From: Anaspis maculata
Lineage: Eukaryota; Arthropoda; Insecta; Coleoptera; Scraptiidae
NCBI GenBank assembly: GCA_949128115.1
Contig: OX421963.1
Coordinates: forward strand, 4,216,001-4,280,000
DNA length: 64,000 nt
Direction: 5' to 3'
The notes beneath the pieces were generated by a model. The model searched no databases and was not told the origin of the DNA. It saw only the letters and a program-made list of their open reading frames with translations. The first letter of the stretch is position 1. Each line of letters opens with the position of its first letter. A program made the position numbers and the translations under genes. Shown piece by piece: positions 10,918-59,079 of the stretch.

Positions 10918-12805
10918 TAGCCCAGGCGCCAGGGAGCAAAAATCAGCTCAATAAGGAAATAATTGTTACCTGGCTGGAAACTAGCTTAAAACGATCTGTG
11001 TAGCTTAAATTTCGACATACTAATTTCCCCCCTTTCGGAAATGTCGGTGTCATGTCGCCATCATCAACAAGAAGTGCACCAGCGTGGTTTTTGCTTAATA
11101 TCTTGATTTTGGGCCATCTGACAGCAAAAGATGTGATAAGTCATTTTGAAACCAATGAAATTCCCTACGAAATAGTTTCTAGATGATCTTTCTGCGACCT
11201 ATGGTTTTTGAGATAGAGCTTCTGAAAGCGACGCATTGTCGTAAAAGCTCCATGGCCACTTGACTCGAAAAACTAAAATGTCGATGTGACAAAAAAAATT
11301 CAAAATGAGATTTCTCGAGAATCCTTCATGCTATAGTTGCGGTGATGGTCCTAAACTCTTTCTCTTGAACCGTTGATCACGAATATAGAAAAGTCAAAAA
11401 CGTCACATTGTACATATACAGGGTGTACTTAAGGAATCAAATCAGATCAGAGAAATTTTACATATTTCTTCGATTTAGCCTATATGCGACACTCTAAGCA
11501 CCTAACACGAGTCCAATATCAATATGGATTTGCTCTATAAGCTTCACTTAATACACTAAAGAAGTGGTAAGCTCGCAGCTTTACTGTAAAATGTTTTGAA
11601 GGCCCTCTGAATTCATCAAAATATTAAAAATTTACAGTACCAAGGAATGTATATAACAGTATATTATATACCAAGGGACCAAAGTGAATTTTTAACTTAG
11701 GGATTTGGACCCAAAGGGCCGTCGAGCAACAAACTTCACCCAAAGGATCAAAAATTCACTTTGGTTCCTTGGTATATAATATACTGTTACATACATTTCT
11801 TGCTACTGTAAATTTTGATGATTTCAGAGGGCGTTCAAAACATTTTACAGGAAGGCTGTGAGCTGACCACTTCTTGAGTGTATCAAGTGAAGCTTACAGA
11901 ACAATGCATATTGATATTGGACTCGTGATAAGTGCTTAGAGTTTCGCATAGGCTAAATCGAAGAAATATGTCAAGTTTCTCTGTTCTGATTTAATTCCCG
12001 TAGTACACCCTGTATATGTACAATGTGACGTTTTTGACTTTTCAATATTCGTAATCTACGGTTCAAGAGAAAGAGTTTAAGACTATCACCGCAACTATAG
12101 CATGAGGAGTTCTCGAGTAATCTCATTTTGAATTTTTTTTTGTCACATCGACATTTTAGTTTTTCGAGTCAAATGGCCATGGAGCTTCCACGACAATGAC
12201 TCTCGCTTCCAGAAGCTCTATCTCAAGGACCATAAGTCGCAGATAATTGATTGAAAAACCAAACTGTAGGGAATTTTATAGGCTTCAAAATGACTCCTCA
12301 CATCTTTTGCTGTCAGATGACCCAAAATTAAAATATTCGGCAAAAACCACGCTGGTGCACTTCTTGTTGATGATGGCGACATGACGCCGACATTTCCGAA
12401 AGGGGGGAAACTAGTATGTCAAAACCTAAGCTACACAGATCGTTTTAAGCTAGTTTCCAGCCAGAAAACAATTATTTCCTTTACGTGTTTGTTGTGTTAA
12501 TACATGAGATGTAATGACTTTTATATAAGTTGTATATGGATATTACAGTTTATGTATTTAAGCTGACACTTGTCAAAATAACCTCAAAAACTACAAAAAT
12601 TTCACAATTTTCAATAGAACAAACACGTAAAATGTTGTACAACACTCGTGGCTTGTTACACAAGATGCTTTCCGACACTCAGCCTCTCACAGAACTCGGG
12701 CTGCGCCCTCGTTCTGCAAATTTCGGCTTCGTGTCTGAAAACCACTTATGTAACAGCCAACTCGTATTGTAAACTACTATATTGTTTTCCCTGGCGCCTG
12801 GGCTA
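10918..12805. mobile_element. Foldback palindrome 1 (concentric inverted repeats)
   Basis: The outer 18-bp arms TAGCCCAGGCGCCAGGGA (10918-10935) and its exact complement (12788-12805) enclose a nearly continuous palindrome from about 10952 to 12483. It includes matching text such as CCGACATTTCCGAAAGGGG near both ends. The motif TACAGGGTG at 11417-11425 is mirrored by CACCCTGTA at 12006-12014. The centre is near 11717. Between the inner arm end (12483) and the outer right arm lie about 300 bases absent from the left arm. There is no coding capacity; a TA target duplication is possible because both ends read TA at the boundary. Confidence 0.85.
12480..12631. mobile_element. Possible 152-bp MITE with 14-bp inverted ends
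   Basis: TTTACGTGTTTGTT (12480-12493) and its exact complement AACAAACACGTAAA (12618-12631) bound a short AT-rich segment. It begins exactly where the right arm of foldback 1 loses its partner, so it could be part of the insertion that lengthened that arm. No clear target duplication was found. Confidence 0.35.
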
Positions 12806-14142
12806 TTGGCCCAACCTCGACTTACGCACGATTATGTGACGTTTTCAACGCCACACGCTACAGAGGGACATGAATACGAAACCTTGGCAGGCAACTTAGA
12901 TATCTACTTTCACCGTCCGGCCATTCTCAATTCAATATCATATTTTGCATACTTATAGAGAAGTCGCATCAGCGAAAACCCTTAATGGTTTTTTTTCACG
13001 ATGCCGCCGGCCAAGAAGTGACGCATGAATAAACGAGCGCCGAAAGGCTTCCATTGTGCGCGGAAAATGGGGCATGTTTGGTAAATATGATTTATAACTG
13101 CGCGGAAACATTCATACCACCAAAATATATATCACTATATCGAATGGCAGGACACCGCAGGACCTGTGGCGATACCTACACACACACCGGAAAAGCCTGC
13201 GATAGGTAGATAGATAGGTATACACAGATTAATTTGTTCAAAGATTAATTTAATGATACTTTATACATTTGGAAAGGTAATAAATTCGTGATGTGCAATG
13301 AACGGTGGAGGATTTATGTGTGTTCCGGTCGGTCCCCCGGTCGAAAACTTTGTCGGAAACCGGCAGTTCTCAAACTTTTCTCTTGTTGAAATAGTCCATT
13401 GTTGTATCTACACCCCTGATTGTTATGAAATGATGCAAGAAAATCATGAAACTTTAAATATTTCACCTGTATATTTACCTACATTCAAAAAGACTACTTT
13501 ATTAGTGACATCAACTAAGTGGCGTTAACTAGGCGAGAACAGTGCTCCCTTTTTCCTCATTCATTCCGTTAATCCCGCCGTCCTCCGGAACGCCATGCCA
13601 AATATTCGAATGACGCCCCTTCAACTGGCGCTTAATTATCAATTACCGGGAGCATTTCGGGTTTATTAAGGTTTATTTACAAGGCGGTTGGCGGAGCTAA
13701 GTGAAGCTTTTAAGGCGCGCACGGGAATAATAATCCAAAGAGCTATACGTTGCGTAAGTATAGCGAATGGCATGGCGGAAAGCACCAAGTGATTCTGCAC
13801 CTCCGCATCCTGGATCCCATTTGTTCTATTATTCCCTCGATTATTCCCGTGCTTCCCTGGAAGTTGCTTTTTTTTTCGCCAATGAACTCTCCATGCATCT
13901 GACGGTTTCGTTGCCAATGACCTTTGCCATGGCCTGGATCTGTGCCGTCTTCATTGTGCTTGATGTGAAAAAGTCATCAATACTGATTCGAAAATATCCA
14001 AAATTCACTGAATCACTCATAATAGGCAAGAATCTAATTGTACCCGAGCTATATTCCTTTTACACGGAATCTCAGATAATCTCACCTCAGTTAGAGGGAG
14101 AAAAAGCGAAAATTGCATGAGAGGGAGAAATACAACTAGCAA
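12806..14142. other. Single-copy-looking intergenic DNA
   Basis: This segment has more CpG and fewer repeats than its flanks. A 117-codon frame (13767-14120, plus) encodes an unrecognised protein with one hydrophobic stretch and no supporting splice signals. An inverted pair, GCACGGGAATAAT near 13719 and ATTATTCCCGTGC near 13840, frames part of it. I cannot assign a function. Confidence 0.4.
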
Positions 14143-14336: not shown

Positions 14337-14359
14337 GGGTTTGGTACATTTCACCGACA

Positions 14360-14750
14360 ACCAACTCACCGACAGGACATTTCACCGACAACCATTTCAC
14401 CAAACGGACATTTCACCAACACGCCGTTTCGCCGACAGGACATTTCACCGACTCGCCGATTCACCGACCGGACATTTCACCGACAAGACAATTCACCGAC
14501 ACGCCATTTTGCCGACAAGACATTCACCGACACGCCGATTCACCGACAAGACATTTCACCGACACGCCAATTCATCGACAGGACATTTAACCGACACGCC
14601 ATTTCACCGACAGGACATTTCACCGACACGCCGATTTACCGACAGGACATTTCACCGACACGCCTATTCAGCGACAAGACATTTCACCGACAAGACAACT
14701 CACCGACAAGACAATTCACCGACAGGAAATTCCACCGACTCGCCGATTTA
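14360..14750 (+). repeat. 16-bp tandem array, left terminal repeat
   Basis: About 24 copies of a 16-base unit alternating ATTTCACCGACAGGAC and ATTTCACCGACACGCC. Because 16 is not a multiple of three and the unit lacks stops, all three forward frames stay open for up to 158 codons (PTGHFTD-type peptides). These frames are artefacts. Confidence 0.9.
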
Positions 14751-18180: not shown

Positions 18181-18879
18181 TGTCAGAATCAGCGTGTCGG
18201 TGAATGGTCCAATAACCAAAATCACACATAACGTTGAAAACCAGACAAAATATTTGTTTATGTGATCAATAGCAAAAATATAATTCACACAATGTGGTGG
18301 TGAAATGAGATCTGGAAAAACTGTGGTGAATTCATATAATTTCTGATCATCAAAGAAATACTAACAATTCATTAGAAATTGATTTCAAGTGTAGGTATCT
18401 GGAAGTTTGTGGACCTTGTTTCAGAACCAAGCTGATTTGACTTCCTAGTCACCCCTGATACATCTACACGCGCCTTTATACTTCATTTCTGATCTTTTTC
18501 TCAGACTCGTGCCTCATGAGATGACCTTTTGCCTTCATGGCTTCTACCGCTTACGTGGAGAATTTATTTCAGATGTCTACTTTATCAAATGAAAAATTCC
18601 AAATTTTAACTAACTCAAATGCATGGTGCACCCAAAGGAAACTTGCCTTTGTCGTAAAAACAATTTTCCTTGACTTTTTTGCCAAAAATGGCCCGAAAAA
18701 AAAGACCGTAGTTGTCAACCCATCCCTCACTTTTGGCGCTGACTGGCGCTGACCAGCAACCATGGTGTTCGGAAACGCGCCGTCAAATGGCGCCAACGGT
18801 AGGGAATCAAGCATATCAATCTTTCAAATGTAGGTCACTTTCGCTCATAGATTTTGCTCCAAAACTCAAAACGCTACAG

Positions 18880-19350: not shown

Positions 19351-19375
19351 TGAAATGTCCGTATCCCAAGGCTAC

Positions 19376-20324: not shown

Positions 20325-20511
20325 TAAAGAGTGTTTCGCAATTACGGTTACAAACTTCAATAGGGGAGATTCTCCATCAAAAATGGACCAGGAAAAATAT
20401 AACTTCGATGTCCTAAAATGCTCCGTTACAAAGATACAGGATGTTCAAGTTGACTTTTTTAAATCAATTTTTTGACATAACTCTTAAGCCGTTCAACTGG
20501 TTTTGTTCAAA

Positions 20512-20937
20512 TTTGGAACAAAGTTAACCAGAATAGGTCTCTATCGAATAATCAGTTAATATTATTTGATAATTAAAATAGCAACGTGTTCAGAAAACAA
20601 AATTCAGGGGCGTGGATAATGGGGAGTGTCTTCATATTTCCCCCCTATTTTTCACCCCTCTAGCTATTTTCCAAAATTGTTCTGATTTTTGAATTCTACG
20701 TCCAATTTGGAAAAAAAAGTTACTCTTGCAAAATTTTGATTAGAGGCTTCGTTTTTGATATATCTGGGTTTGAAACTTTGGAAAACATCTCGAAATTGCC
20801 ACTTTCAAAGGCCTAAAAATTAGAATCAATAAAGGGAAATATAAAGACACCCCTCATTATCTACTCCCCTGAATTTTGTTTCCTAAACGCGTTGCTATTA
20901 ATTGATAGAAACCTATTCTGGTCAACTTTGTTCCAAA
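20512..20937. repeat. Small palindrome at the centre of foldback 2
   Basis: TTTGGAACAAAGTTAACCAG near 20512 pairs with CTGGTCAACTTTGTTCCAAA ending 20937, and CAACGTGTTCAGAAAACAAA pairs with TTTGTTTCCTAAACGCGTTG. The middle mirrors itself through GGGGAGTGTCTTCATATTT and its partner near 20840. It directly abuts the AAAGGACCCC palindrome. Confidence 0.75.
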
Positions 20938-22035
20938 GGACCCCGCACGATTCTTATGGAAAATGGCTCCCGGTTAAATTCTCTGAATTTTTGATATGTT
21001 GTAGCTCATGAGATACTAATCAAATACCGTGAACCCCAAACTCAAATAATGGACAGTTTTTTACCCACTGATTTTAACCAGTTTTTTACTGGGTTGAAGT
21101 TGGAGGTTTTGACGGCTTCAAAATGATACTATGACGTTAATAAAAGCTTTTTATTTGGTTTCTTTTCAAGTTGTGCTTCATGCTAGATGTATTTATTTGG
21201 CAAAAAAATATCAACCCCCTCCTCCACCCCCAACCCCTATCTACCATCATAAAATTCGAGATTACTCCCAAAAGCCATGCGGATGGCTTCTGTGATTTAA
21301 ATAATGAATTTTGACATAAAAATTATTTTCCACCCCTAATGTTGGGGTGCCGGTTTTCCAATTTTCCTTGGTTAATTTGGCTGAATTTTTGGTATTGTGT
21401 ACTTCTAATTCTGTTGAACAAAAAGTTCCCATGCCAAAACTTATTCCTATGGACAGTTTTTGTTCTACAGGGGACTGAAGTTGAAGATTTGAGAGCATAA
21501 ATATTGAACTTCAGTCCCCTGCAGAACAAAAACTGTTCATAGGAATAAGTTTTGGTATGAAAACTTTTTGTTCAGCAAAATTAGAAGTACACAATACCAA
21601 AAATTCAGCCAAATTAACCGAGGAAAATTGGAAAATCGGCACCCCAACATTAGGGGTGGAAAATAATTTTCATGTCAAAATTCATAATTTAAATCACAGA
21701 AGCCATCCGCATGGCTTTTGGGAGTAATCTCGAATTTTATGATGGTAGATAGGGGTTGGGGGTGGAGGAGGGGGTTGATATTTTGCTGCCAAATGAATAT
21801 ATTTAGCATGAAACACAACTTGAAGAGAAACCAAATAGAAAGCTTTTATTTACGCCAGAATATCATTTTTAAGCCGTCAAAACCTCCAACTTCAACCCCC
21901 TGTGGGTAAAAAACTGTCCATTATTTGAGTTTGGGGTTCACGGTATTTGATAAGTATCTCATGAGCTACAACATATCGAAAATTCAGAGAATTTAACCAG
22001 GAGCCATTTTCCATAAGAATCGTGCGGGGTCCTTT
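20935..22035. mobile_element. AAAGGACCCC palindrome, copy 1 (1.1 kb)
   Basis: AAAGGACCCCGCACGATTCT at the left end and its complement at the right end bound an almost continuous palindrome centred near 21500, where ACTTCAGTCCCCTGCAGAAC mirrors GTTCTACAGGGGACTGAAGT. A second copy occurs at 37074-38153. Copy 1 has about 25 extra bases near 21070-21095 compared with copy 2 (second partial GTTTTTTAC). No protein. Confidence 0.85.
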
Positions 22036-22217
22036 GAACAAAATCAGTTTGACGGTTCAAAAGTTATGTCAAAAATTGATTTTAAAAAGTCAATTTGAAC
22101 ACCCAGTATCTTTTTAACGGAGCATTTCATGACATCAAAGTTATATTTTTTCCTGGTCCATTTTTGATGGAGAATCTTCCCTAGAAGTTTGTAACCGTAA
22201 TTGCAAAACACCCTGTA

Positions 22218-22590: not shown

Positions 22591-22594
22591 GCAG

Positions 22595-25316: not shown

Positions 25317-27513
25317 TAGTCCGGACGTTAGGGGAAACCACCCTGCATTTAAGGGTTAAAACATGCCAGTTGGTATAGTTGTTCCATGAACTATAATCTT
25401 CCGATTCAGAAGTGTAGACATCAGCAGCAGACGTGCAGGCTCTCTGTACAGGGTGAAGAAGGAAAAAGAAGAAGGAAAAATGGTAACTCATGAACCAAAA
25501 GAGGTAGAGTCGTCTAAATCGGTATTTATATCCCGATGTCTATGGCAATGGAATTTCATCAAACCATTTTCAAATATCCCGAAGCATTTCTGAAATATTC
25601 TGGAACACTCGTTTTTTTTTTCATAAAAATTTAATTTTTGGGTGGATCAGTGAATTTCAAAAGTATAAGAGTGAAACTTGGTAGTTCTTCATTCCGTGAT
25701 TTGATCAATTGAAAATAATCGGTAACCAGTGCCTAGACCTACTATTTCCAGAAAAAAGACGTTCAACTTTTTTCCTCTTCCCGGCAACAATCTTGCGTTA
25801 ACTATTTGCAGAATAATCAAGGAAGTGATTGGTTATTATAGAATTGATGAGGTACAACCATTTTACCTCAAAAAAAGTAACATCGACATTAGGAACTGCC
25901 TTCTTGTAGAATAAACATTGTCATCCGAGTTGTTCATGATTTTACAGACTTTCTTTGCTCATGGTGGCTAATGTGGTTATTGAAAGGAAAAATTACGTTA
26001 AGCATTCTTATGCCTCACATTTTGTCAAGTCGGTCACAAAAATTTATCATCATCAGTGTAGACGTTTGTCTCAGACAGCTGATCAAACAAAAGATATACC
26101 ATTCTTGTGCGAAAATTGCAAAAATATATAAGGTTTCGTCGTCATCGAATGTGTCTTGAAGAAAATCTGTTGCCTCGAGAGGTACGAATTAGCATGCAAA
26201 TAATTTAATGCAATCTGGTGTTAACAGTGATGCCAAGAAAAATTGGTCAGATGTGTCTAGCTGTCCCATAAAAGACGAGGAAGATGTGGAAAGCGTGGAA
26301 AAATGCAATATTAGCTATAACTATTTGGACCTCGATCCGAACAGTAGGCGAAAAGCACCCTGCACTGTATGGTTAGAACATGCCACTTGGCACAGTGACT
26401 GTTTGAACCATACTCTTTCAATTTAGAAGTGTAGCCATCAGCGCCAACCCTACAGTCCCTGTATGTGGGGAGAAGAAGTGGAAAAGCCACGAAAAGGTGT
26501 TGCTCAAAAACCGAAAAAAAAACGGAGTCTTATCGTCCTTTCTGCGTCGTTTGAAATGATCTTACCAAATTTGCAGATAGCATTGCAGTTGACAATGTCA
26601 ACACCAAGTCCCATAAGATTATCTCCAGGTGAAATTAAACAGTTTGCGGCAGTAAACTCTCTGCCAGAAGCATTCGATCGCAGCGAAACCGTTTTAATTT
26701 TTGCAATTTTCACACAAAAATCGTACATCTTTTGTTTGATCAGCTGCCGGAGACAAACGTCTTCACTGATGATGGAAAATTTATGTGGCTGACTTGACAA
26801 AATTTGTGGCATTAGAATGTCGAGTGTAGTTCTTCCTTTCAGTAACGACATTAGCCATCACGAGCAAAGAAAGTCTGTAAAACCAAAAACAATTCGAATG
26901 ACAATGTTTATTCTACAAGAAGGCAGTTACCAATGCCGAGGTTACTTTTTTTGTGGTAAAATGGTTGTACCTCACCAACTTTATAATAACCAGTCACTTT
27001 CTTAATTATTCTGCAAATAGTCAACGCAAGATGGCTGCCGGGAAGAGGAAAAAAGTTAAATGTCTTTTTTCTGGAAATAGTAGGCCTAGGCACTGGCTAC
27101 TGATCATTTCCAACTGATTACATCACTGAATGAAGAACTACCGAGTTGCACTCTTATACTTTGAAAACTCACTGATTTACCTGAAAATTTAATTTTTATG
27201 AAAGAAAACGAGTATTTCTGAATAATTCAGGAATGCTTCAGGATATTTCAAAATGGTTTGATGGAATTTCATTGGCAAGGACATCGGGATATATATGCCG
27301 ATTTACACGACTCTACCTTTTTTGGTTTATAAGTTACCACGTTTCCTTCTTCTTTTTCCTTCTTCACCCTGTACAGAGAGCCTGCACGTCTGCTGCTGAT
27401 GTCTACACTTCTGAATCGGAAGATTATGGTTCATGCAACAACTATACCAAGTGGCATGTTTTAACCCTAGAATGCAGAGTCCACCCATACTTTAGCGCCT
27501 AACGTCCGGACTA
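25317..27513. mobile_element. Foldback palindrome 3, TAGTCCGGACG family
   Basis: TAGTCCGGACGTTAGG at the left edge pairs with CCTAACGTCCGGACTA at the right edge. Arms of about 130 bases lead to TACAGGGTG (25447-25455) and CACCCTGTA (27365-27373). The palindrome then continues inward (for example GACTTTCTTTGCTCATGGTG near 25950 with its partner near 26855). At the centre, 26330-26470 is a third copy of the terminal arm module (ATGCCACTTGG..., TTAGAAGTGTAG). Short frames inside are mirror images of one another, not genes. A TA target duplication is possible. Confidence 0.85.
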
Positions 27514-28428
27514 CAAGCAGTGTGGCAGCTGACACCCTATCAAGGGTAATCCCAACGTTCGTGAAAGAGAAAAACGACGAAAAAGTGAGTGCTGGCTTGA
27601 ACAACTTGACAATCAACACATATTCTCCATTCAAACGGGAGATGAAGTTTTCCAGCAATTTTAGTAGGTATGTTATGGGCGCACTTTGAGCTTTTCAAAA
27701 AATACAGATACATTTTCTTGTGCTTTGACGGAAGAGTTGAGTTGATCATAGCAAAATAAGTCGTATGATTGGAAAAAGTATTTGCTTCTACTTCGCCTTT
27801 TACTAGAAGTTAGGTACTAAGCAAGTTTCTCTCAGCAACTCCTAGTTGAAGGTGGATTGACAGCAAACGTTTCTTTTAATCACAGCACAAAACGAGAAAC
27901 AATATGCCAAGCTCGGTCACAAAGCGAATTCCTGATGCCCATCAGCAAACTTTGAGACATTCCAAAGATCTGAAAGCATATCAAAGTTTTGTTCTAAATA
28001 AAAGCCTGGGAAAACTTACAAGCGCAATGATGCCATTACAGAACACTAATCAAGCTGAAAACCATCATAAGTGGATAATAATGCATTATTTTCGTGACTA
28101 CATCCAACTTCGTCCCAGTTTTACACGCAAGCATCATCCCCGTCTACGTACGAGAATTCCAAATCAAAACATGCACCTCGATGCACTTCAAATGCACCAC
28201 TCGACCTATTCCTTCAGATCAGCGCGCGATTTATTGCTCCCTGTTTCTCCACCGAGTCTATTGTTCGCTGTCCGAGCTTGTTTTATGTTGGTATAAGTGC
28301 CCTGGTATAGACAGAAAAGCTCCAAAAAGTCCAAAAACAGCAAAAAGAACAGAATAAAAAAACTCTAACAGTCTTCTTTTATATCCCCAGCATCAGCAGG
28401 AGTGCCGCTTGGCCCGAATCATGTATAG
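27514..28428. other. Intergenic DNA with an unrecognised 130-codon frame
   Basis: A plus-strand frame at 27904-28296 (130 codons, M PSSVTKRIPDAH start) has no motif I recognise, no signal peptide and no clear splice signals. It could be chance or part of an unknown repeat. Nothing else stands out between the two foldbacks. Confidence 0.35.
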
Positions 28429-29670
28429 TATATTGGAAATAGAATATCTGCTGGAATTAATTCAAACAAAAACGATTTTTTCACCATGGCTAGTTTTCAG
28501 TTCCCTCTTCAACATATCAAAAGTCCCCAACTCTAGGACTGCTACAAATTAGTATACAGGGTGAAAGTTTATTATTTTTCTTTATTTCCTTTCTTTCTCA
28601 AAAAACTGATTACTGAAGAAAACGATTTTAGGCTAGTTTGATAGGCCATGGTCTTCCAATAAACATATAAGAAATATACTACTCAGCAACTGCTGTGTAT
28701 CAAGTTACAGGGTGAAAACTATTTTTCATTTTCAATTTTTTTTCTAAGTGGAACTGATCTAGATTGAAGTCAGTTCCAGTTCTTTTGCAAGCTTATAATG
28801 TCATACTGAACATATAAAAAGAATACATTTCTGCAACTGCTGCTTTTCAATTTACAGGGTGAAAAGTCATTTTCACGTTTCAATTTTTTTCTTGGTGAAA
28901 TTGGCTCACACATCAATTTCGACTGATTCTTCTGTAAACTTGAAGTTTCTAGTCAAACATATCAAAATAATACATTTCTGCTACAGCTATGTTTCTTTTT
29001 ACAAACTTAAATGTTTGGGTATATTCGGGTATATTGCATCAAAAATTCAATAAATCTTGGAACGCAACCAAACATTCAAATTTGTAAATAAAAACGTAGC
29101 TGTAGCAGAAATGTATTATTTTGATATGTTCGACTAGAAACCCCAAATTTACAGAAAAAACAGTTGCAATTGTTGTGTGAGCCGATTTCATCAAGAAAAA
29201 AATTGAAACGTGAAAATGACTTTCCACCCTGTAAATTGAAAAGCAGCAGATGCAGAGATGTGTCCTTTTTATATTTTCAGTATGACATTATAAGCTTGCA
29301 AAAGAACTGGAACCGGCTTCAATCTAGATCAGTTCCACTAAGAAAAAAAATTGAAGATGAAAAATAGTTTTCACCCTGTAACTTGATACGCAGCAGTTGC
29401 TGGGTGGTATATTTTTTATATGTTTATTGGAAGACTATGGCCTATCAAACTAGCCTGAAACCGTTTTTTTCGGTCATCAGTTTTTCAAGAAAAAAAGAAA
29501 GTAAAGAAAAATATTAAACTTTCACCCTGTATACTAATTTGTAGCAGTCCCAGAGTTGAGGACTTTTGATATGTTGAAGAAGGGACTGTAAGCTTGCCAT
29601 GGTAAAAAAATCGTTTTTGTTTGAATTAATTCCAGCAAAGCACCTATTTTTTTCTATTTCCAATATACTA
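28429..29670. mobile_element. Foldback palindrome 4 with three concentric TACAGGGTG pairs
   Basis: TAGTATATTGGAAATAG at the left edge pairs with CTATTTCCAATATACTA at the right. Motif pairs, outer to inner: 28555/29523, 28706/29372, 28853/29225. The left motifs are spaced about 150 bases apart, each followed by GAAA and an AAAAT-rich tail and preceded by ACATAT plus an (AT)ACATTTCTGCAACTGCTG phrase, so each arm is itself a three-unit tandem array. Centre near 29040. Non-coding. Confidence 0.88.
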
Positions 29671-43248: not shown

Positions 43249-45664
43249 GGGAGACAAATGTGGCGATTCCCAAAAAAAACAACATTTCACAAACGCTCCG
43301 TTACACTAGGCAAACCATTAGCCGACAGGATTTCTTTTAAATAACAGAGTATCTACAGAATGCCACCCTCCACAGAATTGCATCATAAGTAGGAACAGCA
43401 AGGGATCACGTTAAACATTTTGCAAAAGAGATAACATAATTCCCCCCAAATAAGAAACGGTTAGTAGACTCAACAAGGCAGAGTCATACAAGCAGGTGAA
43501 CCCCCCCCCAGGACAAGGAGAAGCGCGCAAGTCCCTTTTCCTTCCTTTACTTTAATGTATAACCTGATAATGAACAATGAAATGAAAATGAATCATAAAA
43601 GTACTGTTCTCTACTTAGCGGCTGATTTTGGCGTAGCAGAGTTCCTTTTTGTCGTCTTACTGTTTGTGACGTAACTTGTGGAAAGAAACAATTAATGAAA
43701 CCTCGAAATACGCGCGCAGCGCAGTTCGCAGGCCACGTCATTTGTGGGCCAAGTGTACATCCACTTGATTTCCGGATTTTGACGTCAACATTGAGATCAT
43801 TTGGGAGTAGATAAATCACACAAAATTTAAAGCTGTGCGAAGCACCTTGATTTCAAAGGGGAAAGCGGCGGGTTATGCAAGCCCGTTGATAACAAAGAGA
43901 ACAAAGGATTTCGGGTTATGTACAATAATTTCGCGGACAAAATAGGTATCAAAATGCATGAGTTGGTGAGTGAGTGGAAGCCAAAATTACGATACAATAA
44001 TTAAAGAAAGACCGACCTTAGAGTTGTAAAAACCACGCACTCTTGATGCACTGAAAATCACGTGTTCTTCACCACCACAGCTGATCCTCTTCTCTGCCTG
44101 CGGCTGCCGCCCGGCTCGCCTAGCGCCATCTCCCTCTCCCCGCGGCAAACGCTACCGACGTCAACGACCGTACCTACTTCAGGTACCAACGTATAAACAA
44201 AACCAAGGGGGAATACCACAATATTGACTCTGGTCGATACCGCTCCCAGTTTCAAGTAACCATAATGTTGGATCAACTGATGGAAGGTCAACAATTGAAA
44301 TAATTCAATCTTGTTCCATTTAATTACCAGAAATTTCTCCGCTATCTCTCAGTGGGATTGTATAAGTAAATTTTTGGTTCTCTCAGTCTCCCCATAAGTT
44401 TTTTGTAAAGATGTTTATTTCTACTGACCGGTTTCGAGGGCCTCTGGTCTCTTCTCTTAGAGTATGTACAGGAGAAATAAAATATAACAATGCAAATGGA
44501 ATGGAAATATGACAGTACATACCAAAAAGTGAATGCAGAAAGAGATGAAAAGTCGATATTCGAAGACACAAGGGGGCTCAGTGTAGCAAACCGGGCCTTA
44601 TTAGCTTGGTTTCCCCTACTCGGGATTTCTTTTGAATGATTGCTGGAGCCTAACTGTTCTTGTTGTAACCCAACTGCTATTTTTCTACAGTTAATTCGAA
44701 TTATGAGAGAGATTCGGAACTAAATTACGACCGCCTTTTCCCCTGTTAAACATACCGATGCTTTAACGTAATGAATGAGTCAACTAGACGGCTGAATTGT
44801 TCCTTAAAAAAACTTAACGCTCATCACATGTCAGACTGAACAAACATCCATGGGCAGATTTCAGCGTTGCAAAGAACTGGACCCCCCAAAAAGGTCCGCT
44901 CTTATTGGTCCGTGGGACCACGCGGTGAAAAGATAACCAAAGATGATAAATAGGTCCCACTTGACTTTCCCAGAGACTTCCGACCCAACTTTGAACTGAG
45001 CTGCATTTCGTTGCAGACCGCGCCGCGGTTAAATTCAATTACTAATTTATTTATGATTAATGACTGAAGTCATTAAGTTTCTAAGACTCGGATGTGTCGG
45101 CGGAACCGTCCAAGTTTGGCGGTCCCTCCCAGTAAAATTTCGAAATATTGAGTGGTCAAAGTTCCACAATTCTACTGTAAAATCACGCGCGAGAAATCAA
45201 TTAAATTCTTTCCCTTGTACTAGACGGGAAATCGACGCGTTAACAGTGCATATTGAATCCCCATGCTCAAGCCGATGCGTTATAAAATTTGAATTTTTCA
45301 AGATACGCGAAGACGCGTTCCTTCGTAACGTGCAACCTATTCGCCCCAAAGACATGACCCCTGTGTTCTTCGCAAGTGAACTCTGTTGAAACCCAGAGTG
45401 GAACGCAAAAATTGGAGTCTTTATAAGTGTGATGTCACCGCATATAAGGTAAAATCTATCAAATTAATATCCTCACGGATGAAGATTGAGTCACCCGCAA
45501 TAATGATCATCTGCCATGACTTCATCTCTCATACTAGTGAAATCCCCCTCTCTCTCTCTCTTGTATCTCCACTTACGTCATGTGCACGAGCTATGACGGA
45601 TGAACGCCAATATGGCGTCGCGACAGTTGTTGCATCACCCTCTCTTATTCTAAATGTATTAAAG
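43249..45664. other. Mostly single-copy-looking intergenic DNA
   Basis: Contains a C10-like run near 43500, a GC-rich patch at 44.08-44.17 kb, a PLE-like word at 44.4 kb (separate entry) and a short CT microsatellite near 45549. Frames such as 45060-45389 (109 codons) and 45386-45721 match no family and lack splice context. Confidence 0.4.
44395..44480 (-). repeat. Possible Penelope-type terminal repeat fragment
   Basis: ACTGACCGGTTTCGAGGGCC, then a self-complementary GGCCTCTGGTC and CTTCTCTTAGAGTATGTACA, has the same layout as the PLE terminal segments at 14.28 and 25.0 kb (GACCGGTTTCG, short hairpin, TTGTACA). No RT lies next to it. Confidence 0.4.
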
Positions 45665-47636
45665 TGCTCAACAATGAAAGTGTTACAATGCAAAAATTCA
45701 CCCAATTTTGAACCGCTGTAACTTTTGATTGGCACAAACGATTCTGATTCTGTTTTAAGTACTGAAGAGCCTGATCTTTTGGCCATCTTTCTTGTCAATA
45801 TAAAATCCATAGAGCCCCTCATAAAATTTCTACAGGGTGATGAACAGAGCAGTGCAAAATTGATGAAAGTTCAACATACCCCCGCTTTCGTTAAAAATTT
45901 TTTTCGGGAATATCAACACCAAATTTATGAAGAATGATGTATTCCCTCGAAACGGTTTTTGAATTTTAGGGATTCCAGTCAAAACCGCCAAAATGTGATT
46001 TTTTATTGTGAATACTGTATATTATTCTTGTAGCAACGCAAAAACATTAGAACTTTTCATATCAAGATGACGCCACTTAATAGGCTTGTTCACTGAACAA
46101 TTCTGAGCAATTTGACTTGCAAAACGTTCCTATTGTCTAGTGTAGGGGTGAAGAAAAGCCCAATTGGCAGTGTACTTTTTGGTACTACTCCTAAAATTCG
46201 AGTTTTCAGCATTGAAAAAAGGTTAATTTTTACTCTTTTCAGTCAACATGGGACTACGTCATTGGAATTGGATTAACAACATTTCCGCCATTTTGGAATT
46301 TTTTGCCTTTACCTCAAATTCCAAAACATAGGCATGTTTGGCATCATTTCTTGAAATGTTGGTCCCCTAAATGGGATTCTGTCAATAAGATCTGTCTATC
46401 TGTTTGTTTATCTGTCTATCTCTTTCCGAAAAAATATTGATAGAATTTTTAACCCCACCCCCCTTCTTCCTGAAATTCTCTGAGTGTCCAATTTGATATT
46501 CTTGAGCTCTCAATTCTTTTCAATGCAGTCAACGTCATCCTGCATAGCATCGGGAGAGATAATTTTCTGTGGAAAAAATGCCACCCAAATTTCACCCTTT
46601 CGCTCCCCCCACCTCATCTCAAAAATCTAAAATGGCAATACCTACTTTGTGATACATCAAATTGAAGGAAATTAAATTCTCTCCATGAACAAAATTTTTT
46701 CAAACTTTTTAAAACCCCCATTTTCCTCACAAAACACCCCAAATGTCTAATTTATTTGGAGAGGGGTTGAAAATTTCAAAAAAAATTGTTCTCGGAAGGA
46801 GAATTCAACTCTCTTCAATTTGATGTATCACAAAGTAGGTAGTGTTTCGTAAAATTTTGAAGCTGAGGTGGGGGAGAGCAAAAGGGTCGATTTGGGTAGC
46901 AGTTTTTCCACCGAAAATTCTTTTCTTCGATGTTTTCTATGATGACACTGACTGAATTGAAAACAATTGAGAGGTCCAGAAACAAGAATAAGACAGTCAG
47001 AAAATTTTTAGGGCGAAGAAAGGTAGGGTTAATATTTTTGTAAATATTTTTTTCAGAAAGAAAATTTAAATCTCTTCAATTTGATGTATCGCAAGGTAGG
47101 TCACCTCGTTTGAAATTTCAAAGTTGGGGTGAGTGGGGGCGAGGGGGCTCAAGATAGAAATTTGCCAATTTATGTTTTAGATGTCTCCTTTGATATGAAA
47201 ATCGACCTGTTTTTGCTCGAGGAAATATTCACTAGGAATCGGGAGTTATTGCAGGTGGATAGTTTTCAAATGGTCACCCGGTGCAGTATTCACAATAAAA
47301 AATCACATTTTGGCTGTTTCGACTGGAATCCTGAAAATTCAAAAACCGTTTCGAGGGAACACATCGTTCTTCATAAATTTGGTGTTAATACTCCCAAAAA
47401 GATTTTTTTGTGAAAACGGGGGTATGTTGAACTTTCATCAATTTTGCACTGCTCTGTTCATCACCTTGTAGAGAATTTATGAAAAACTCTATGCATTTCA
47501 TATTGACAAGGAAGATGGCCAAAAGATTGGGCTATTCAGAACTTGAAACAAAATCAAAATCATATGTGCCAATCAAAAGTTATAGCGGTTCAAGATTGAG
47601 TGAATTTTTGCTTTGTAACACTTTAATTGTTGAGCA
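45665..47636. mobile_element. Foldback palindrome 5
   Basis: TGCTCAACAATGAAAGTGTT at the left end pairs with AACACTTTAATTGTTGAGCA at the right. TACAGGGTG (45831) mirrors CACCTTGTA (47462). Arms run to GTGAATACTGTAT (46010) / GTGCAGTATTCAC (47283). An unpaired segment follows on the left (46.02-46.43 kb) before pairing resumes around a centre near 46740 (TTTGTGATACATCAAATTGA and its partner near 46816). No coding capacity; no clear target duplication. Confidence 0.82.
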
Positions 47637-48246
47637 GTTTAGTTCACCGAACTTGTAGCGTCACGAGTAAAGCAGTGGGTAACGGCCTCTGGCTGTGCGA
47701 GCGCGAGTCAGAGTGCAGGACTCTACTTTACCGGCGCTGTCACTGAAATGTCAATTACGTCATTCAAACGTCACAGTGTCAACTGAGTTTGTTGTTTACC
47801 ACTTAATGTTTTTTTAGTCACGTAGATGGCTGCATTTGTGAATATTTTTAATGCTAGTTTTTGATAACAATCTTGCAGCATTTGTAATTTTTTTATTTTG
47901 CTTGTTTTGAATATATTTAATGTTGTTTTGAGGAATCTCTTGTTTATCTGACCACCCTTCACGTTGGTGGTCAGATAAACGTTAAGCTGAAAATTCCAAC
48001 TCGATTCACATGCCTCGTCTGCCGGACTCAACATAAACGCCTACCCGAAGAGTTGAAGCCAGAAATAGATGCACGCTACCCCAATCTAGATTAAAACCTG
48101 AGATGCACCCAGATGGTCTGTTCCCCTCCCCCCATAGATCTGTCTCTCCATATAAAACAACTGAGAACAGTGGTGGCAGTTCACGTTACTACCCTAGATA
48201 TAAGCAACCCCTATTCTAACGACCATATAGGGTCATCGACCTACTA
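47637..48246. other. Intergenic DNA between two foldbacks, with one strong hairpin
   Basis: No gene is visible. It contains the 15-bp-stem hairpin listed next. The rest is non-repetitive within the window. Confidence 0.4.
47942..47980. repeat. Perfect 15-bp stem hairpin
   Basis: GTTTATCTGACCACC (47942-47956), a nine-base loop CTTCACGTT, then GGTGGTCAGATAAAC (47966-47980). Arms are exact complements. There is no T-run or tRNA-like context; it may be the tip of a decayed palindromic element. Confidence 0.85.
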
Positions 48247-49411
48247 TACAGAGTGATTCATGAGTGACCTTACATAGGCTTATGGGAGATAGAGGACTTC
48301 GAGGCGAGTCAGGATCCACTGAAGAAATTTTATTTTCTCAAATGGTTACGAAGATACAGGGTGTTTTGTGGGTTTCGTATGAAACATAGAAAAGCGATAT
48401 TTCTGAAACGACCAGAGATATTTTGTTGAGATTCACCAGTAATATTTCTCTATTGGAACTCATCCCGAAGCCATACCGGGTGAGTCAAAATCCAGGGCCG
48501 GGCTAGAAAAAAGGTGCCCCTTTTTTGTTTCATCAAATAGTACATTTTTGACCGCTTTTCTAAAAAACTGCTATCGGATTCAAAAAGCCAAGGAAAAATG
48601 CTTCAAGAATCACTCTTCAATTTAGATGGCACACCTCAACCGTTTCGACAATAAAATTAAAAATAAAATTTGTGGGTGAGTTCCCATTTTCGATCGGACA
48701 TAATCGACTCATTGTTTGATTGAATTCATTCAAATTCATTTTTCAGCTTGGCTTTGTTGAATGAAAGAGCTTGGTTGAGGAAAAAACTCCAGGGCCGACA
48801 ATTTTTTTTATTGACAAAATCGAGAGTGAAACCAAAATTAGACTCAATTTGGTTGTAAGATAAAATTTTCGGCTATGGAATTTTTCTTCCTACCAAGCCG
48901 TTCTATTCCACAGAGACAAGGTGGAAAATAAATTTGAATGAATTCAATCAAACAATGAGTCGATTATGTCCGGTCAAAAATGGAAACTCACCCATAAATT
49001 TCACTTTCAATTTTTATGTCGAAACGGTTCAGGTGTGCCATCTAAATTGAAGAGTGATTCTTGAAGCATTTTTCATTTGCTTTTCGAATCCGATAGCAGT
49101 TTTTTAGAAAAGCGGTCAGAAAATATACTTTTTGATCAAATAAAAAAGGGGCACATTTTTTCAATCCCGGACCTGAATTTTGACTTACCCAGTATGGCTT
49201 CCGGGTGAGTTCCAATAGAGGAACATTACTGGTGAATTTCAAAAAAATATCTCCAGCCGTTTCAGAAATATCGCTCATCAAAGTTTCATACGAAACACAC
49301 AAAACACCCTGTATCTTCGTAACCAATGGAGAAAACAAAATTTCTTCAGTGGATCCTGACTCGCCTCAAAGTACTCAATCTCCCGTAAGGTCACTCATGA
49401 ATCACCCTGTA
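48247..49411. mobile_element. Foldback palindrome 6 with two concentric motif pairs
   Basis: The element starts at the motif itself: TACAGAGTGATTCATGAGTG on the left and, read inward from the right, TACAGGGTGATTCATGAGTG, with TA at both edges as the likely target duplication. A second pair lies inside: TACAGGGTGTTTTGTG (48355) and CACAAAACACCCTGTA ending 49313. Arms continue (AAAGCGGTCA and partner near 48550/49113) to a centre near 48830. Non-coding. Confidence 0.88.
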
Positions 49412-50414: not shown

Positions 50415-51277
50415 ACACATATGAAGCACAAATCAAGCCAACCGGTGAAATCCTCAGTGCTTCATTTGTGCTTCATTGTGCTTCAAACTGAAGCCAAGTC
50501 ACACCCACGGTTCAGTAGATATAGGACTCCAAAGTGAAAAACGCAGGGCTAAAAATTGGCCACAGCTTTTTTGTTATTGAAGCACAAATAAAGCTAACTG
50601 GTGAAATCCTCAGTGCTTTGTTAGTGCTTCATTGTGCTTCAAACTGAAGCGCAGTCACACTTACACAGTTCAAGAATTAGAGGGTTTCAAAGAGAAAAGT
50701 GCAGGACTGGAAGTTGGCTACAGCGTTTTTGTTATCGAAGCACAAATGGTGTGATTGGGTTCTGGTTTGAAGCACAATAAGGCACTAGCAAAGTACTAGG
50801 AATTCCACAATCAGCTTCATTTGTGCTTCAATAACAAAAAAGCTGTAGTCAACTTCCAGCCCTGCACTTTGCATTTTGGAGCCCTATATCTCTTGAACCG
50901 AGAGTGTGGCTGGGCTCCGGTTAAAAGCACAATGAAGAACTAACAAATCACTAAGGATTCCACTAGTTAGCTTCATTTGTGCTTCAATAACAAAAAAGCT
51001 GTAGCCAACTTCCAGACCTGCACTTCGCACATTGGAGCCCTATATCTCTTGAACCGTAGATGTGGCTAGGCTTCAGTTTGAAGCACAATGAAGCACTAAC
51101 GGAGCAGTAAGGATCTCACCAGTTAGCTTTATTTGTGCTTCAATAACAAAGAAGCTGTAGCCAACTTCCAGCCCTGCACTTTGCACTCTGGAGCCCTATA
51201 TCTCTTGAACCGTAGATGTGGCTGGGCTCCAGTTTGAAGTACAATGAAGCACCAACAAAGCACTGAACATTCCACCA
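50415..51277. mobile_element. 863-bp insertion of inverted tandem repeats in ORF1
   Basis: The insert is flanked by direct GTTGACT (50408-50414, 51278-51284; AGTTGACT if counted as eight). It consists of about five units of roughly 167 bases built on TTCATTTGTGCTTCAATAAC, AAAAAGCTGTAG and CAACTTCCAGCCCTGCACTT. The two left units are inverted relative to the three right ones, switching near 50750, so the whole can fold back. Removing it with one target copy joins ORF1 (KRSQ to LPAPEYP) in one reading frame. The ORF1 tail from 51284 leftward (LVECSVLCW...) is insertion sequence. Confidence 0.8.
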
Positions 51278-54694: not shown

Positions 54695-55436
54695 TAGTCC
54701 GGATGCTAGTTGGAAGTACCTTGCATTTTTTGATGAGAAGATGCCACTCGGTGGAAATGCTCTTTGCATCGTACTCTTCCGATCCAGAAAAGTAGTCATC
54801 AGCGCCATCCATGCCGGCGGCGTATACAGGGTGATACAGAAAAAAAAAGTTGAAAAATTATATTCAAATGACCGAAACATGTGGAGACGTGTCACTCACC
54901 ACATACATTAACTATTTCATGCTTATGAAGTCGCAACAAACTGTTTTTGATTACCTTGAACCGTCTTCGAAATATAGGGGAAAACCAGAAGAAAAAAACA
55001 AAACACTCTTTTTTCCATAAAAAAATGATTCTTCGAGATATTGACACAATACTTGGTATTTCTACAAAAAGTAATGTTAGAAATAATATGAGCTGGGTAG
55101 CCAAATTCTAAGCCAACTATTTCCAGAAGTACGATTGTAAACTTTTTTTCCTCTTGAGCACCATCTTGAATCTGCCCTGTGAGGCATCGTTGAAAAAGTG
55201 ATTGGTTATTATAATAGTGGTAACATGGAATCATTGCATCGCAAAAACAACCTCCTCATCATAATTTAGTGACCTCTTCGGCGAAAAAGAATTGTCATTC
55301 ACGTATTTTTTGGCTCTTCAAAGCTTTAGTGCCCATAATGGCATTTGCAACATCTGGAATGGTAAAATATATTACGCTTTATGAACCTTGATGTACTTTG
55401 AGGTAGCCTACCAAGTTTTACCATCATCAATTGAGA

Positions 55437-56151
55437 GGTTTGTTCTTAAAAGTTGTTTGGACAGAATTTGTGTCGTTTTTTTTATGAAAAATACAAAATA
55501 TTGGGTCTCTCACCCTCACTTGATCCCTCACTGAGGATAGCCTGAAACCGAAAGTCTCCGAATTTTTCATGATAATGGTTCAGTGAGAAGTGCTCTTCAA
55601 TGTTTAGTTGTCAAAAATTGCATAGTGGCGTTCAGATTTCAGACAGAGAGCGACAAAGAAGTTCATGCAGTAAAAAAAGACATAAATTACAGTCGATAAA
55701 AAACTAGTCCAGAGCTAGACTGAAAGCAGTCTGGAGACCTTGCTTTTCATAACATAAATGTGCAATTTGGTACAGTGTTAGAGCTTCAAGTTAGTGATGT
55801 TTCGAGCCTTTTACCCACGCTTGAGAGTATTACAGAATCTGTGTATTGCGGGAAGCCTATCTAAAAGGGACATTTCCAGGATTTCTCCGTTGCATTGAAA
55901 GCTGTGTTTTTTTTCACTGCATGAACTTCTTTGTCGCTCTCTGTCTGGAATCTGAACGCAACTATGCAGATTTTGACAACAACACATTGAAGGGCAGTTC
56001 TCAATGAACCATTAGCATGAAAATTTTGGAGACTTTCGGTTTCAGGCTTTCCTCAACGAGGGATCAAATAAGGGTGGAAGATACAATATTTTGAATTTTC
56101 CATAAAAAAAATAAAACAAATTTTGTTCAAACAGCTTTTGAGAACAAACCT
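55437..56151. repeat. Palindrome at the centre of foldback 7
   Basis: AGGTTTGTTCTTAAAAG pairs with CTTTTGAGAACAAACCT. TTCATGCAGTAAAAAAAGAC pairs with TTTTTTTCACTGCATGAA. The core around 55.78 kb is less symmetric. It abuts foldback 8. Confidence 0.8.
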
Positions 56152-56155
56152 TTTA

Positions 56156-58297
56156 TAGTCCGGACGCTAAGGTCAAAATTTAGGGGGCACCCTTCACTTT
56201 TATAACAAGCAATGCCACTTGGCATACCTGTTGCCGAGACCATGTTTGACCGATTAAGATCAGGAGCCAAAGTCGTAGGTGATGCAGGCGCCGTATACAG
56301 GGTGTCGTATAGAAAAAAAGTGAAAAATTCGTATATCATTAACCGAACCAGATGGATTCACGTGAGTAGGCACATATATCCACAATATATTACCCATCGA
56401 GGAAGAGTCAACAGTTTTGGAAAATCTTGAGCGGTTCCTGAAATATTCCGGAAAAACTGAATTTTCTTCTAAATATTTTATTTCTCGGTAAATCAGTGAA
56501 TTTTCAAGATATCGAAGTGCAACTTGGTAAGTTTATGGCGAGTATTGTCATGAATAAAAAACGATCAGGAGCCAAATGCAGGGCCTGCTATTTCCAGAAG
56601 TAAGACAGTCAACTTTTTTTCTTCGTCACCGCCATCTTGAATCTCCGTTTTACTCAACAGTTGGAAAAGTGACAGTCGAATGTGAGAATGTTAGCATCCA
56701 GTCACCCTATTACAAAAAAGATGGCCTTGAAGCAAGGTGAGGGTGTCTTCATCAAGAAAACATTGTCACCCAAGGTTTTCATGGTAATACGCATTTGCAG
56801 CGCCTGTGATGGCTAATGAGAATTTTGAAAGAGAAGAGTGAGTTCTTTGTCACAATTCTACATTCATTTTGAGCTGAATTACCAAAATTCATGATGATCG
56901 GTCCAAAGGTAAACTCTTGATGGCTTGCTGAACCAAATAGGTGGCGCTTTTTGATGAGAAATGCAAAAAAAAATCGGGCTATCATTATCATGTTATCCCT
57001 CACGAAGAGAAGGCTGTTGCAAAAACTGAAACAAATCAACGCTGAAATGTTTTGTGAGATTGAAGCCTATATTCTTGAGCCAATAAATGTTGAACACATG
57101 TGTCCGGTTGCCAGAGAGAAGACATGGAAGGCGTGCATGCAGACAAAAAATTCAAAATTTTTATACACATATTTCATTCAGAAACCCACCAAAAGTCGAT
57201 GATCAACAATATTACATCCATTTTGAGATTTGGTACCAAAATTCATCATCATCGATCCAGAGACAAAATTTTGGTAGCTTTCTGAAAATAATACGTGGCT
57301 CAGAACTTGGAAAAAACTTTCTGCATGCAAGTCTCTCATGTCTTCTCTCTAACAAATGGACGCATGTGTCCAACATTTTATGGCTCAAGATTATAGGGTT
57401 GACTTTTCCAAAACATTTCAGCGTTGATAAGTTTAAGTTTTTGCAATAGCCTTCTCTTGGTGAGGGATGACGTGATGATGATTACTCGATTTTTATTGCA
57501 TTTTTCACCAAAACACGCCACATATTTGGTTCAGCAACCCACCAAAAGTTTACCTTAGGACCGATCATCATGAATTTTGGTAATTCAGCTCATAATGAAT
57601 GTAGAATTGTGACAAAGAGCTTACTCTGCTCTTTCAAATCTCTGATTAGCCATCACAGGCGCTGCAAATGCGTATTACCATGAAAACCTTGGGTAACACT
57701 GTTTTCTCGATGAAGAGACCCTTACCTTGCTTCAAGGCTATCTTTTTCATAATGGGGTGACTGGATGTCAACTATCTCACATTCGGTTGTCACTTTTTCA
57801 ACTGTTGAGTAAAACGGAAATTCAAGATGGCGGTCGCGAAGAAAAAAAAATTCACTGTCTTATTTCTGGAAATGGCAGGCCTTGCATTTGGCTCCTGATC
57901 GTTTTTGATTTATGACCATACTGGCCACAGAACTGCCAAGTTGCACTTCGATAACTTGAAAATTCACTGATTCACCAAGAAATAAAACATTCAAAAGAAA
58001 ATTCAGTTTTTCCTGAATATTTCAGGAACCGCTCAAGATTTTCCAAAACCGTTGACTTATCCTTGATGGGTAATATATTGTGAATATACATGCCTGTTCA
58101 CGTGAATCCACTTGGTTTGGTTAATGATACACATTTTTTTTACTTTTTTTCTATACGACACCCTGTATACGACGCCTGCATTGCTTGCGACTTTGGCTCC
58201 TGATCTTAATCGGTAAAACATGGTCTCTGCAACAGGTATGCCAAGTGGCATTGCTTGTTATAAAAGTGAAGGGTATTATACCTTAACATCCGGACTA
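56156..58297. mobile_element. Foldback palindrome 8, nested TAGTCCGGACG family member
   Basis: TAGTCCGGACGCTAAGG and CCTTAACATCCGGACTA are the ends. TACAGGGTG (56296) mirrors CACCCTGTA (58159). Arms continue through ACAGTTGGAAAAGTGACA (56660) and its partner (57793) to a centre near 57230. TA on both edges. It has the same arm module as foldbacks 3 and 7, and so belongs to the family that it interrupts. Confidence 0.88.
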
Positions 58298-59079
58298 TTA
58301 ATTGATGATTGCAAAACTTGGTAGGCTACCTCAAAGTACATCATGGTTCATAATGCGTAACATATTTTATCATTCCAGATGTTGCAAATGCCATCATGGA
58401 CACTAAAGCTTTGAAGAGCCAGAAAATACGTGAATGGCAATTCTTTCCCGCCGAACAGGTCACTAAATTATGATGAGGAGGTTGTTTTTGCGATGCAATG
58501 ATTCCATGTTACCATTATTATAATAACCAATCACTTTTTCAACGATGCCTCACAAGGCAGATTCAAGATGGTGCTCAAGAGGAAAAAAAAGTTGACAATC
58601 GTATTTCTGGAAATAGTTGGCTTAGGAATTGGCTACCCAACTCATATCATTTCTAACATTACTTTTTGTAGAAATAACAAGTATTGTGTCAATATCTCTA
58701 AGAATCACTTATTTATGGAAAAAAGAGTGTTCTTGTTTTTTTTCTGTTTTTCCCCTATATTTCAAAGACGGTTCAAGGTATTCAAGAACGGTTTACTGTG
58801 ACTTCATGAGCATAAAACAGTTTATGTGTGTGGTAAATTGAACGTCTCCACATGCTTCGGTTATTCAAATATAATTTTCCAACTTTTTTTTTCTGTTTCA
58901 CCCTGTATACGCTGCCGGCATGGATGGCGCTGATGGCTACCTTTCTGGATCGGAAGAGTATGATGCAAAGAATATTTTCACCGAGTGGCATCTTCTCATC
59001 AAAAAATGCAAGGTCCATTCCATTTTATGCAACTAGCATCCGAACTATTATGGCAATCCACCATGAGTGCCTATTAAGT

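Follow-up and report, generated by a model that had tools for sequence, protein, structure and literature searches.

Long-armed palindromic transposons of two classes in the genome of the beetle Anaspis maculata

Motif-bearing palindromes and the two element classes

The window analysed here, 64,000 bp from the beetle Anaspis maculata (Coleoptera: Scraptiidae; NCBI GenBank assembly GCA_949128115.1, contig OX421963.1, positions 4,216,001 to 4,280,000), contains a series of palindromes whose arms carry the motif TACAGGGTG paired with CACCCTGTA. The original prediction, made from the DNA letters, listed twelve such mirror pairs in seven palindromes (11417/12006, 20325/22209, 20435/22100, 25447/27365, 28555/29523, 28706/29372, 28853/29225, 45831/47462, 48247/49403, 48355/49305, 54825/58899 and 56296/58159) and read them as concentric. 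Either TA-targeting elements with CAGGGTG ends would prefer the centre of an existing palindrome, or arms built of CAGGGTG units would have been copied as inverted duplications. The motif is present at all 24 positions: it is exact at 19, has one mismatch at four (20435, 22100, 47462 and 48247) and reads TAAAGAGTG, with two mismatches, at 20325. As had been noted, the degenerate copies include both members of the 20435/22100 pair, each with one mismatch. The left copies do point inward, and no exact motif lacks a partner, all 19 exact copies in the window falling within the twelve pairs.

Allowing up to one mismatch, the window contains 35 motif matches, compared with a mean of 6.2 in 100 shuffles of the window, none of which reaches 35. 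Throughout the 758-Mb genome, exact TACAGGGTG occurs 71,780 times on the forward strand and 71,810 times on the reverse (143,590 in all), whereas the motif read backwards, which serves as a control, occurs 1,383 and 1,331 times (2,714). The motif is therefore the mark of very abundant repeats. The mirror pairs are real, and the earlier observation as a whole is partly confirmed.

The palindromes are non-autonomous transposons of two classes. One, termed the TAGT class in this analysis, has TAGT ends and a 3-bp duplication of any sequence. Its family C member (25317..27513; 2197 bp) has ends TAGTCCGGACG and the duplication CAA/CAA, with TACAGGGTG 131 bp from the left end in the short arm (25447..25455, forward strand) and 141 bp from the right end in the long arm (27365..27373, reverse strand). 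The element at 28426..29670 (1245 bp; ends TAGTATATTGG; GTA/GTA) carries the motif at 130, 281 and 428 bp on the left and at 140, 291 and 438 bp on the right, the first copies lying at 28555..28563 in the short arm (forward) and at 29523..29531 in the long arm (reverse). Family A is represented by 54695..59047, an element of ~2.2 kb with the duplication TTA/TTA, into which a second element of ~2.15 kb has been inserted; its motif copies lie at 54825..54833 (short arm, forward) and 58899..58907 (long arm, reverse). The inserted element belongs to family B (56156..58297), with TACAGGGTG at 56296..56304 in its long arm (forward) and at 58159..58167 in its short arm (reverse).

The duplications of the TAGT class were also followed outside the window. 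All nine further copies of the 25317 element that were fetched, none of which was chosen for its duplication, have a matching 3-bp duplication (CGA, AAA, TTG, CTT, AGC, TGT, AAG, CTA and CAG). Altogether, 19 duplications of 3 bp were recorded, ten of them from a search that required matching 3-bp flanks of any sequence; only two are TWA, both TTA. Arms with repeated units, as in the second of the two original proposals, exist in this class. The arm of the 28426 element has 151-bp tandem units that are 65% alike over 362 bp, and two family D elements of 5.5 and 7.3 kb (L042 and L043) have arm units ~305 bp apart. In these, the left-arm motifs lie at 131, 436 and 740 bp and at 131, 435 and 740 bp, and an arm can hold up to four copies (L043).

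In the other class, the TA class, the ends are C(A/C)GGGTG, and TA flanks the element at either end. That CAGGGTG is the end of a TA-targeting element was borne out in a preset sample of sixteen 10-kb regions, placed at 10 and 20 Mb on each of the eight long contigs (four of the 20 places chosen do not exist), in which TA precedes 36 of 45 CAGGGTG copies. Among the outermost TA-class elements, all 14 have TA on both sides and 7 of the 14 have TATA on both sides, as in the duplications of Tc1/mariner elements (for L030, L032, L038, L039 and L040, flanks were compared over ~8-12 bases). Because several of these 14 were found partly by their TA flank, the figure from the preset regions is the freer one.

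In the window, the TA-class palindrome 48247..49411 (ends CAGAGTG/CACCCTG, TA on both sides) has a second TACAGGGTG 108 bp inside its left end and 98 bp inside its right end. In 20325..22217 (ends AAGAGTG/CACCCTG, TA on both sides), the second motif lies 110 bp inside on the left and 109 bp on the right. Two further palindromes bear one cited pair each: 10953..12481, with ends near AGGAAATAATTG, a TA-like duplication and the pair 11417/12006; and 45660..47641, whose outer ends are not firmly placed, with the pair 45831/47462. The 20325 element also encloses, at ~20935-22035, a near-perfect palindrome (ends near AAAGGACCCC) that is present twice in the window; the other copy, at 37074-38152, has arms 94-96% identical. 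A larger inverted arrangement surrounds the 20325 element at 19422-24262, with arms of 320 and ~580 bp.

Concentric layout and the test of central insertion

A concentric appearance is a generic property of palindrome arms. Across the inverted-repeat positions of the cited palindromes, 2,728 of 7,240 9-mers are exactly mirrored, and in 2,344 of these 2,728 the 40 bp outside are at least 80% complementary (this count takes in smaller inner palindromes, and positions of 56152-58301 are counted twice, once within 54691). Since arm words are usually mirrored with complementary sequence outside, such a layout is by itself no evidence. Likewise, the ending of each level at the exact centre of the next, which had been presented as a special property, holds for any motif in a palindrome arm. 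Complementary sequence outside every pair, as originally described, is found except at two of the twelve, 20325/22209 and 48247/49403; these pairs are outermost, and their flanks are unrelated save for the TA.

The pairs 54825/58899 and 56296/58159 had been regarded as concentric, and are not so by central insertion. The palindrome 54691-59051 is an element of 2.2 kb centred at ~55793, and the second element (56152-58301, ~2.15 kb) lies in its right arm, ~358 bp off centre, flanked by a TTA/TTA duplication; the right arm, its two pieces joined, aligns along the left arm. The palindromes as a whole show that apparent concentric palindromes require a control, most inverted-arm motifs looking concentric.

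The first idea of the original prediction was that TA elements had inserted recently, one after another, at the tips of palindromes already in place. Such sequential insertion would fit the two to four motif levels found within one palindrome (28426). It predicts outer arms that are more diverged than inner ones. Among the seven two-level elements (10953, 20325, 25317, 45660, 48247, 54691 and 56152), mismatch between arms is, in that order, 9.1, 7.3, 6.8, 13.9, 7.0, 7.4 and 8.1% in the outer unit; 10.3, 15.7, 10.8, 10.0, 11.7, 14.3 and 14.2% over the first 120 bp of the inner level; and 9.5, 18.3, 12.6, 15.2, 10.5, 8.3 and 11.1% when the inner level is measured over up to 400 bp. The inner arms are the more diverged in six of seven elements by the first measure, the reverse of the prediction, and in seven of seven by the second, with many gaps in two. 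The four levels of 28426 give 6.9, 10.5, 6.0 and 10.0% (the last over its first 120 bp), with no trend.

Eight of the nine further copies of the 25317 element (L021-L029), each fetched whole, are 95-97% identical to the window copy throughout, and L028, which has a central deletion, is 98-99% identical to it over two main pieces; arm-to-arm identity within these copies is 85-88%. Arm divergence is thus passed on with each copy of 25317-27513 and therefore dates no insertion, and the dating of levels was dropped.

Single-level palindromes with empty centres, for which the original prediction had suggested a search, were sought in three limited ways, the second and third confined to exact ends and the lengths given here, and no unfilled outer palindrome was found. 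None of 80 matches to a query joining the flanks of 25447/27365 spans both arms (best 40 of 743 candidates scored); many of the matches listed lie in facing pairs ~2.0 kb apart. A genome-wide search for an unfilled outer TAGTCCGG palindrome with exact ends and a length of 257-287 bp gave one locus, where the flanks are TAA/TCA and the element has lost internal sequence. Genome-wide, there are 428 places with short TA-class pairs of 203-233 bp (each on both strands), and none of the 16 compared, of ~50 listed, is a clean palindrome, identity after the motif being 41-69%.

The original prediction would have been contradicted by elements lying outside palindromes, and in the preset regions ordinary DNA with non-complementary flanks indeed surrounds 7 of 13 pairs. 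A preference for palindrome centres is not supported, and the earlier interpretation is upheld in part. Arm divergence does not fall inward, the whole 25317 palindrome is multicopy with inherited arm differences, and the identities of outer units and inner arms broadly rise and fall together among families; on these grounds, recent sequential insertion is very improbable.

The inner motif and its spacing

The anatomy, duplications, copy numbers, spacing and asymmetry of these palindromes are features of the DNA as it stands. The explanation we favour for them, and consider probable, is that they are long-armed transposons of two classes, each moving as one unit, with subterminal TACAGGGTG sites. 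Each palindrome would have been copied into place as one unit, the TA class inserting at TA as Tc1/mariner elements do. By analogy with inverted repeat/direct repeat (IR/DR) transposons, the inner motif would most likely be bound by the transposase or by a helper protein while the two ends pair.

The position of the inner motif in the TAGT class bears on this explanation. The first TACAGGGTG lies 131 and 141 bp from the ends of the two arms in 25317, 54695, 56156, L042 and L043, at 130 and 140 bp in 28426 and at 120 and 141 bp in L002:7940. The motif is therefore near 130/140 in seven of the ten TAGT-class elements compared (120/141 in one). The spacing of 28426 is nearly equal to that of the others despite an identity of only 52-54% to the TAGTCCGG families, which is the background level. 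The L021-L029 copies keep 131/141 save for one arm at 134, and in 4 of their 18 arms the motif has one or two mismatches. When six arms from three TAGT families that are ~60-69% identical are aligned, 314 of 1,175 columns are invariant, and TACAGGGTG, at 9 bp, is the second-longest invariant run, after one of 10 bp. To judge from these comparisons of sequence, the pattern suggests that the inner motif is constrained and that the element moves as a whole.

A comparable arrangement exists in the TA class, several families of which have a second TACAGGGTG about 108-140 bp inside the first. The distance between outer and inner motif is 108-110 bp in six diverged families, save for one arm of 48247 at 98 bp. 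Over the first unit of ~110 bp, 31 of 173 columns are invariant among these six families, and invariant runs of at least four lie only within the two TACAGGGTG copies. Three of the six (L036, L038 and L040) were fetched because their listed motif copies are 108-109 bp apart. Among the matches listed, 6 of 19 forward neighbours less than 200 bp apart are separated by 108-109 bp and 4 of 19 by 124 bp.

Several observations weigh against the favoured explanation. No TACAGGGTG-like site is present ~100-180 bp from the end in three of the ten TAGT-class elements (L002:1942, L002:4140 and L015:1430), so the class as a whole does not require it. The TA-class spacing of 108-110 bp is partly selected, L030-L041 having been fetched for closely spaced motif copies; only 20325, 48247 and L010 are free of that selection. 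The fixed spacing may be inherited in part by families sharing ancestry. Internal copies retain a TA before CAGGGTG, which a binding site does not require and an old TA insertion would explain. Furthermore, no transposase has been tied to either class in a search with one family, Transposase_1, whose profile gave eight matches genome-wide from 22 candidates, scored without their flanking DNA.

The retained TA would fit an old capture, in which a TA-class palindrome inserted, once, at the TA in the middle of a TAGT-class palindrome, giving a composite that went on to spread and diversify. In the cited pairs, TA stands in front of every internal motif, the inner sequence begins like TA-class ends and, TA being self-complementary, insertion at a central TA would leave a flush palindrome. 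However, the distance from end to motif is near-constant (130/131 and 140/141) in families that hardly align, and inner arms are the more diverged in six of the seven two-level elements (first 120 bp). The searches for the unfilled state also count against it, with one internally deleted locus for the TAGTCCGG palindrome and none of 80 for the joined flanks (best 40 of 743). Such a capture is unlikely.

Somewhat better placed, although still doubtful, is growth of the arms by tandem duplication of motif-bearing units, with palindromy maintained through inter-arm conversion or through the inverted duplication of a single arm. Such growth is compatible with long-armed transposons moving as units. 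The 151-bp units of 28426 and the ~305-bp units of L042 and L043 are in its favour, as is L002:4140-5582, in which a TAGTCC-like end has become internal, at ~310 bp inside the element, with a core beyond it that is 62-67% like family A. The sequences bordering this internalised end are AAA and TTT, its exact position being our own reading. A 3-bp duplication consists of the same bases in direct order on both sides and cannot be self-complementary; the AAA/TTT flanks thus mean that this layering is not explained by central insertion of an element that duplicates 3 bp. Tandem growth nevertheless leaves unexplained why families A, B and C have just one internal motif and why the first spacing is fixed.

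Unequal TAGT ends and known systems

The two ends of TAGT-class elements are not alike. In all ten elements compared, the arms differ by an insertion that begins 16-22 bp from the end, with offsets of 9, 10, 21, 10, 10, 10, 10, 10, 10 and 10 bp. The scan covered the window, L001-L016 and L030-L043 and required TAGT..ACTA, at least 12 of 17 matching end bases, matching 3-bp flanks and at least 68% identity over the first 120 bp. It gave 12 matches, of which L008:3104-5892 and 3104-6285, which lie in a tandem array and have no offset, were left out, leaving the ten. L044 (both ends long) and L045 (non-matching flanks TAA/TCA) are likewise not counted. Four window elements prompted the rule, and L042 and L043 were fetched with their end lengths known. 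The free cases are thus those from the preset regions: L002:1942 (9 bp), L002:4140 (10 bp), L002:7940 (21 bp; first spotted by eye, and passing the scan after the threshold was loosened) and L015:1430-3173 (10 bp), TACAGGGTG being absent throughout L015. By end identity, the ten form about five groups. Inverted alignments with an identity of at least 80% contain 181 gaps, 14 of them 8-10 bp long. Six of the 14 are the end offsets and the other eight are at other positions, so that gaps of such length are not confined to ends. The extra bases of the long arm are often, by eye, a run of A followed by G. In the TA class, 11 of 14 elements have no arm offset in the first 60 bp, one has an offset of 2 bp and two (48249 and L030:3998) have 10 bp; L010 has a 57-bp arm difference further in.

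The asymmetry is also evident genome-wide. TAGTCCGGAYG followed by TACAGGGTG after a gap of 100-130 bp occurs 1,326 + 1,359 times on the two strands, and the reversed control does not occur; TAGTCCGGAYGYTAR alone occurs 1,931 + 1,998 times, and its control 1 + 0. Among the 100 matches listed, all of which are on contig C1 and mostly copies within a few families, lengths of 120-150 bp were possible, and those found were 139 (46 ends), 149 (44), 140 (4), 148 (2), 150 (2), 131 (1) and 141 (1). All 31 facing neighbours within 10 kb among these listed matches pair a 139 with a 149, in one order in 16 cases and in the opposite order in 15. Anatomically this resembles the 12/23 arrangement, each of the 31 listed pairs consisting of one short and one long end.

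Near the end, the arms of the TAGT class are thus ~one helical turn apart (two in one case), which may favour the pairing of unlike ends. It is about an even call whether the TAGT class represents a eukaryotic transposon group not described before, one that duplicates 3 bp and obeys a one-helical-turn, 12/23-like pairing rule. The asymmetry could be either a functional pairing rule or an old inherited feature. RAG recombination signals and P elements are already known to have unlike end spacing. If the rule is real, helical-phase asymmetry would be a recurrent means of forcing two-end pairing, present in a third transposon class, and selection on unlike end spacing would be readable from palindrome arms that are otherwise much alike. 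Palindromic elements are a clean place to see such asymmetry because the rest of the arms is mostly matched.

Among known 3-bp-duplicating groups, CACTA (EnSpm) elements duplicate any sequence and have subterminal repeats and CACT(A/G) ends. The TAGT class is like them in the first two respects and is excluded from them by its ends, which are TAGT and not CACT. PIF/Harbinger elements duplicate TWA, the sequence of just 2 of the 19 duplications recorded here. RAG/Transib elements make 5-bp duplications and have CAC-type heptamer ends, neither of which agrees with a 3-bp duplication and TAGT ends. Galileo, a member of the P superfamily, duplicates 7 bp. According to the parts of a review available to us, P-superfamily elements make 8-bp duplications, and in P elements the terminal repeat is 9 bp from the transposase site at one end and 21 bp from it at the other, a spacing that its authors liken to 12/23 recombination signals (PMC7776569). 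The TAGT class is like the P element and RAG in asymmetric end spacing, as far as those parts describe it, and differs in its 3-bp duplication, its TAGT end and the occurrence of the asymmetry in palindromic elements of ~1.2-7.3 kb; the 3-bp duplication of all nine fetched copies, rather than one of 8 or 7 bp, excludes the P-element superfamily. In the accessible part of its description, Galileo has foldback-like arms whose tandem repeats contain several sites for transposase binding (PMC3688188). The long inverted arms with repeated units described here are similar to such Galileo/Foldback-like elements, whereas the duplications of both classes, 3 bp and TA, are different. The open-licence literature search, in the portions of the papers it reached, gave no description of the TAGT class, and Zator and pogo, as presented in part of PMC7386202, do not match it.

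For the TA class, the closest comparison is with IR/DR elements. The direct repeat of Sleeping Beauty is ~30 bp long. Sleeping Beauty-type IR/DR Tc1/mariner elements, in the part of PMC7827188 at hand, share with the elements described here a TA duplication and an inner and outer motif in each arm, which in the TA class lie at a fixed distance; they differ in that the common motif here is little more than TACAGGGTG with TA, in up to four copies per arm (L043). In the consulted part of a study of Rhodnius prolixus, two mariner lineages have ends beginning CAGGGTG, and one miniature inverted-repeat transposable element tagged 'Tc1-like ?' begins TACAGGGTG (PMC4678618). With these mariner, Tc1-like and miniature elements, compared at the end sequence alone, only the first bases are held in common.

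Two sets of larger elements were considered for coding capacity. L044 (C1:14788393-14794894) was rejected as an autonomous element: it is a 98%-identical inverted duplication with arms of ~2 kb that takes in flanking DNA of a TAGTCCGG end, both its ends look long-type, and no transposase was seen by eye in its reading frames. The core of L042 and L043, 96-97% identical between the two, has broken reverse-transcriptase-like frames by eye and no recognised transposase.

Other features of the window include a palindrome at 50422-51142 with repeated TGAAGCAC words and ATA on both sides, which looks like another family and has no arm offset visible in its first 60 bp. Of six window open reading frames (ORFs) compared with Pfam, one gave matches, both below the curated cut-off and the better one of long interspersed nuclear element (LINE) type; a protein search with the LINE-type ORF found nothing. 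The ORF at 23925-24476 is without a Pfam match and resembles, by eye, what we take to be a GIY-YIG/Penelope fragment. At 61995-63870 there are LINE-like ORFs with a CCHC-type gag by eye and a weak endonuclease/reverse-transcriptase Pfam match below cut-off. Two inverted arrays of a degenerate 16-bp repeat, of 24.8 and 30.2 copies, lie ~4 kb apart at 14346-14739 and 18879-19360.

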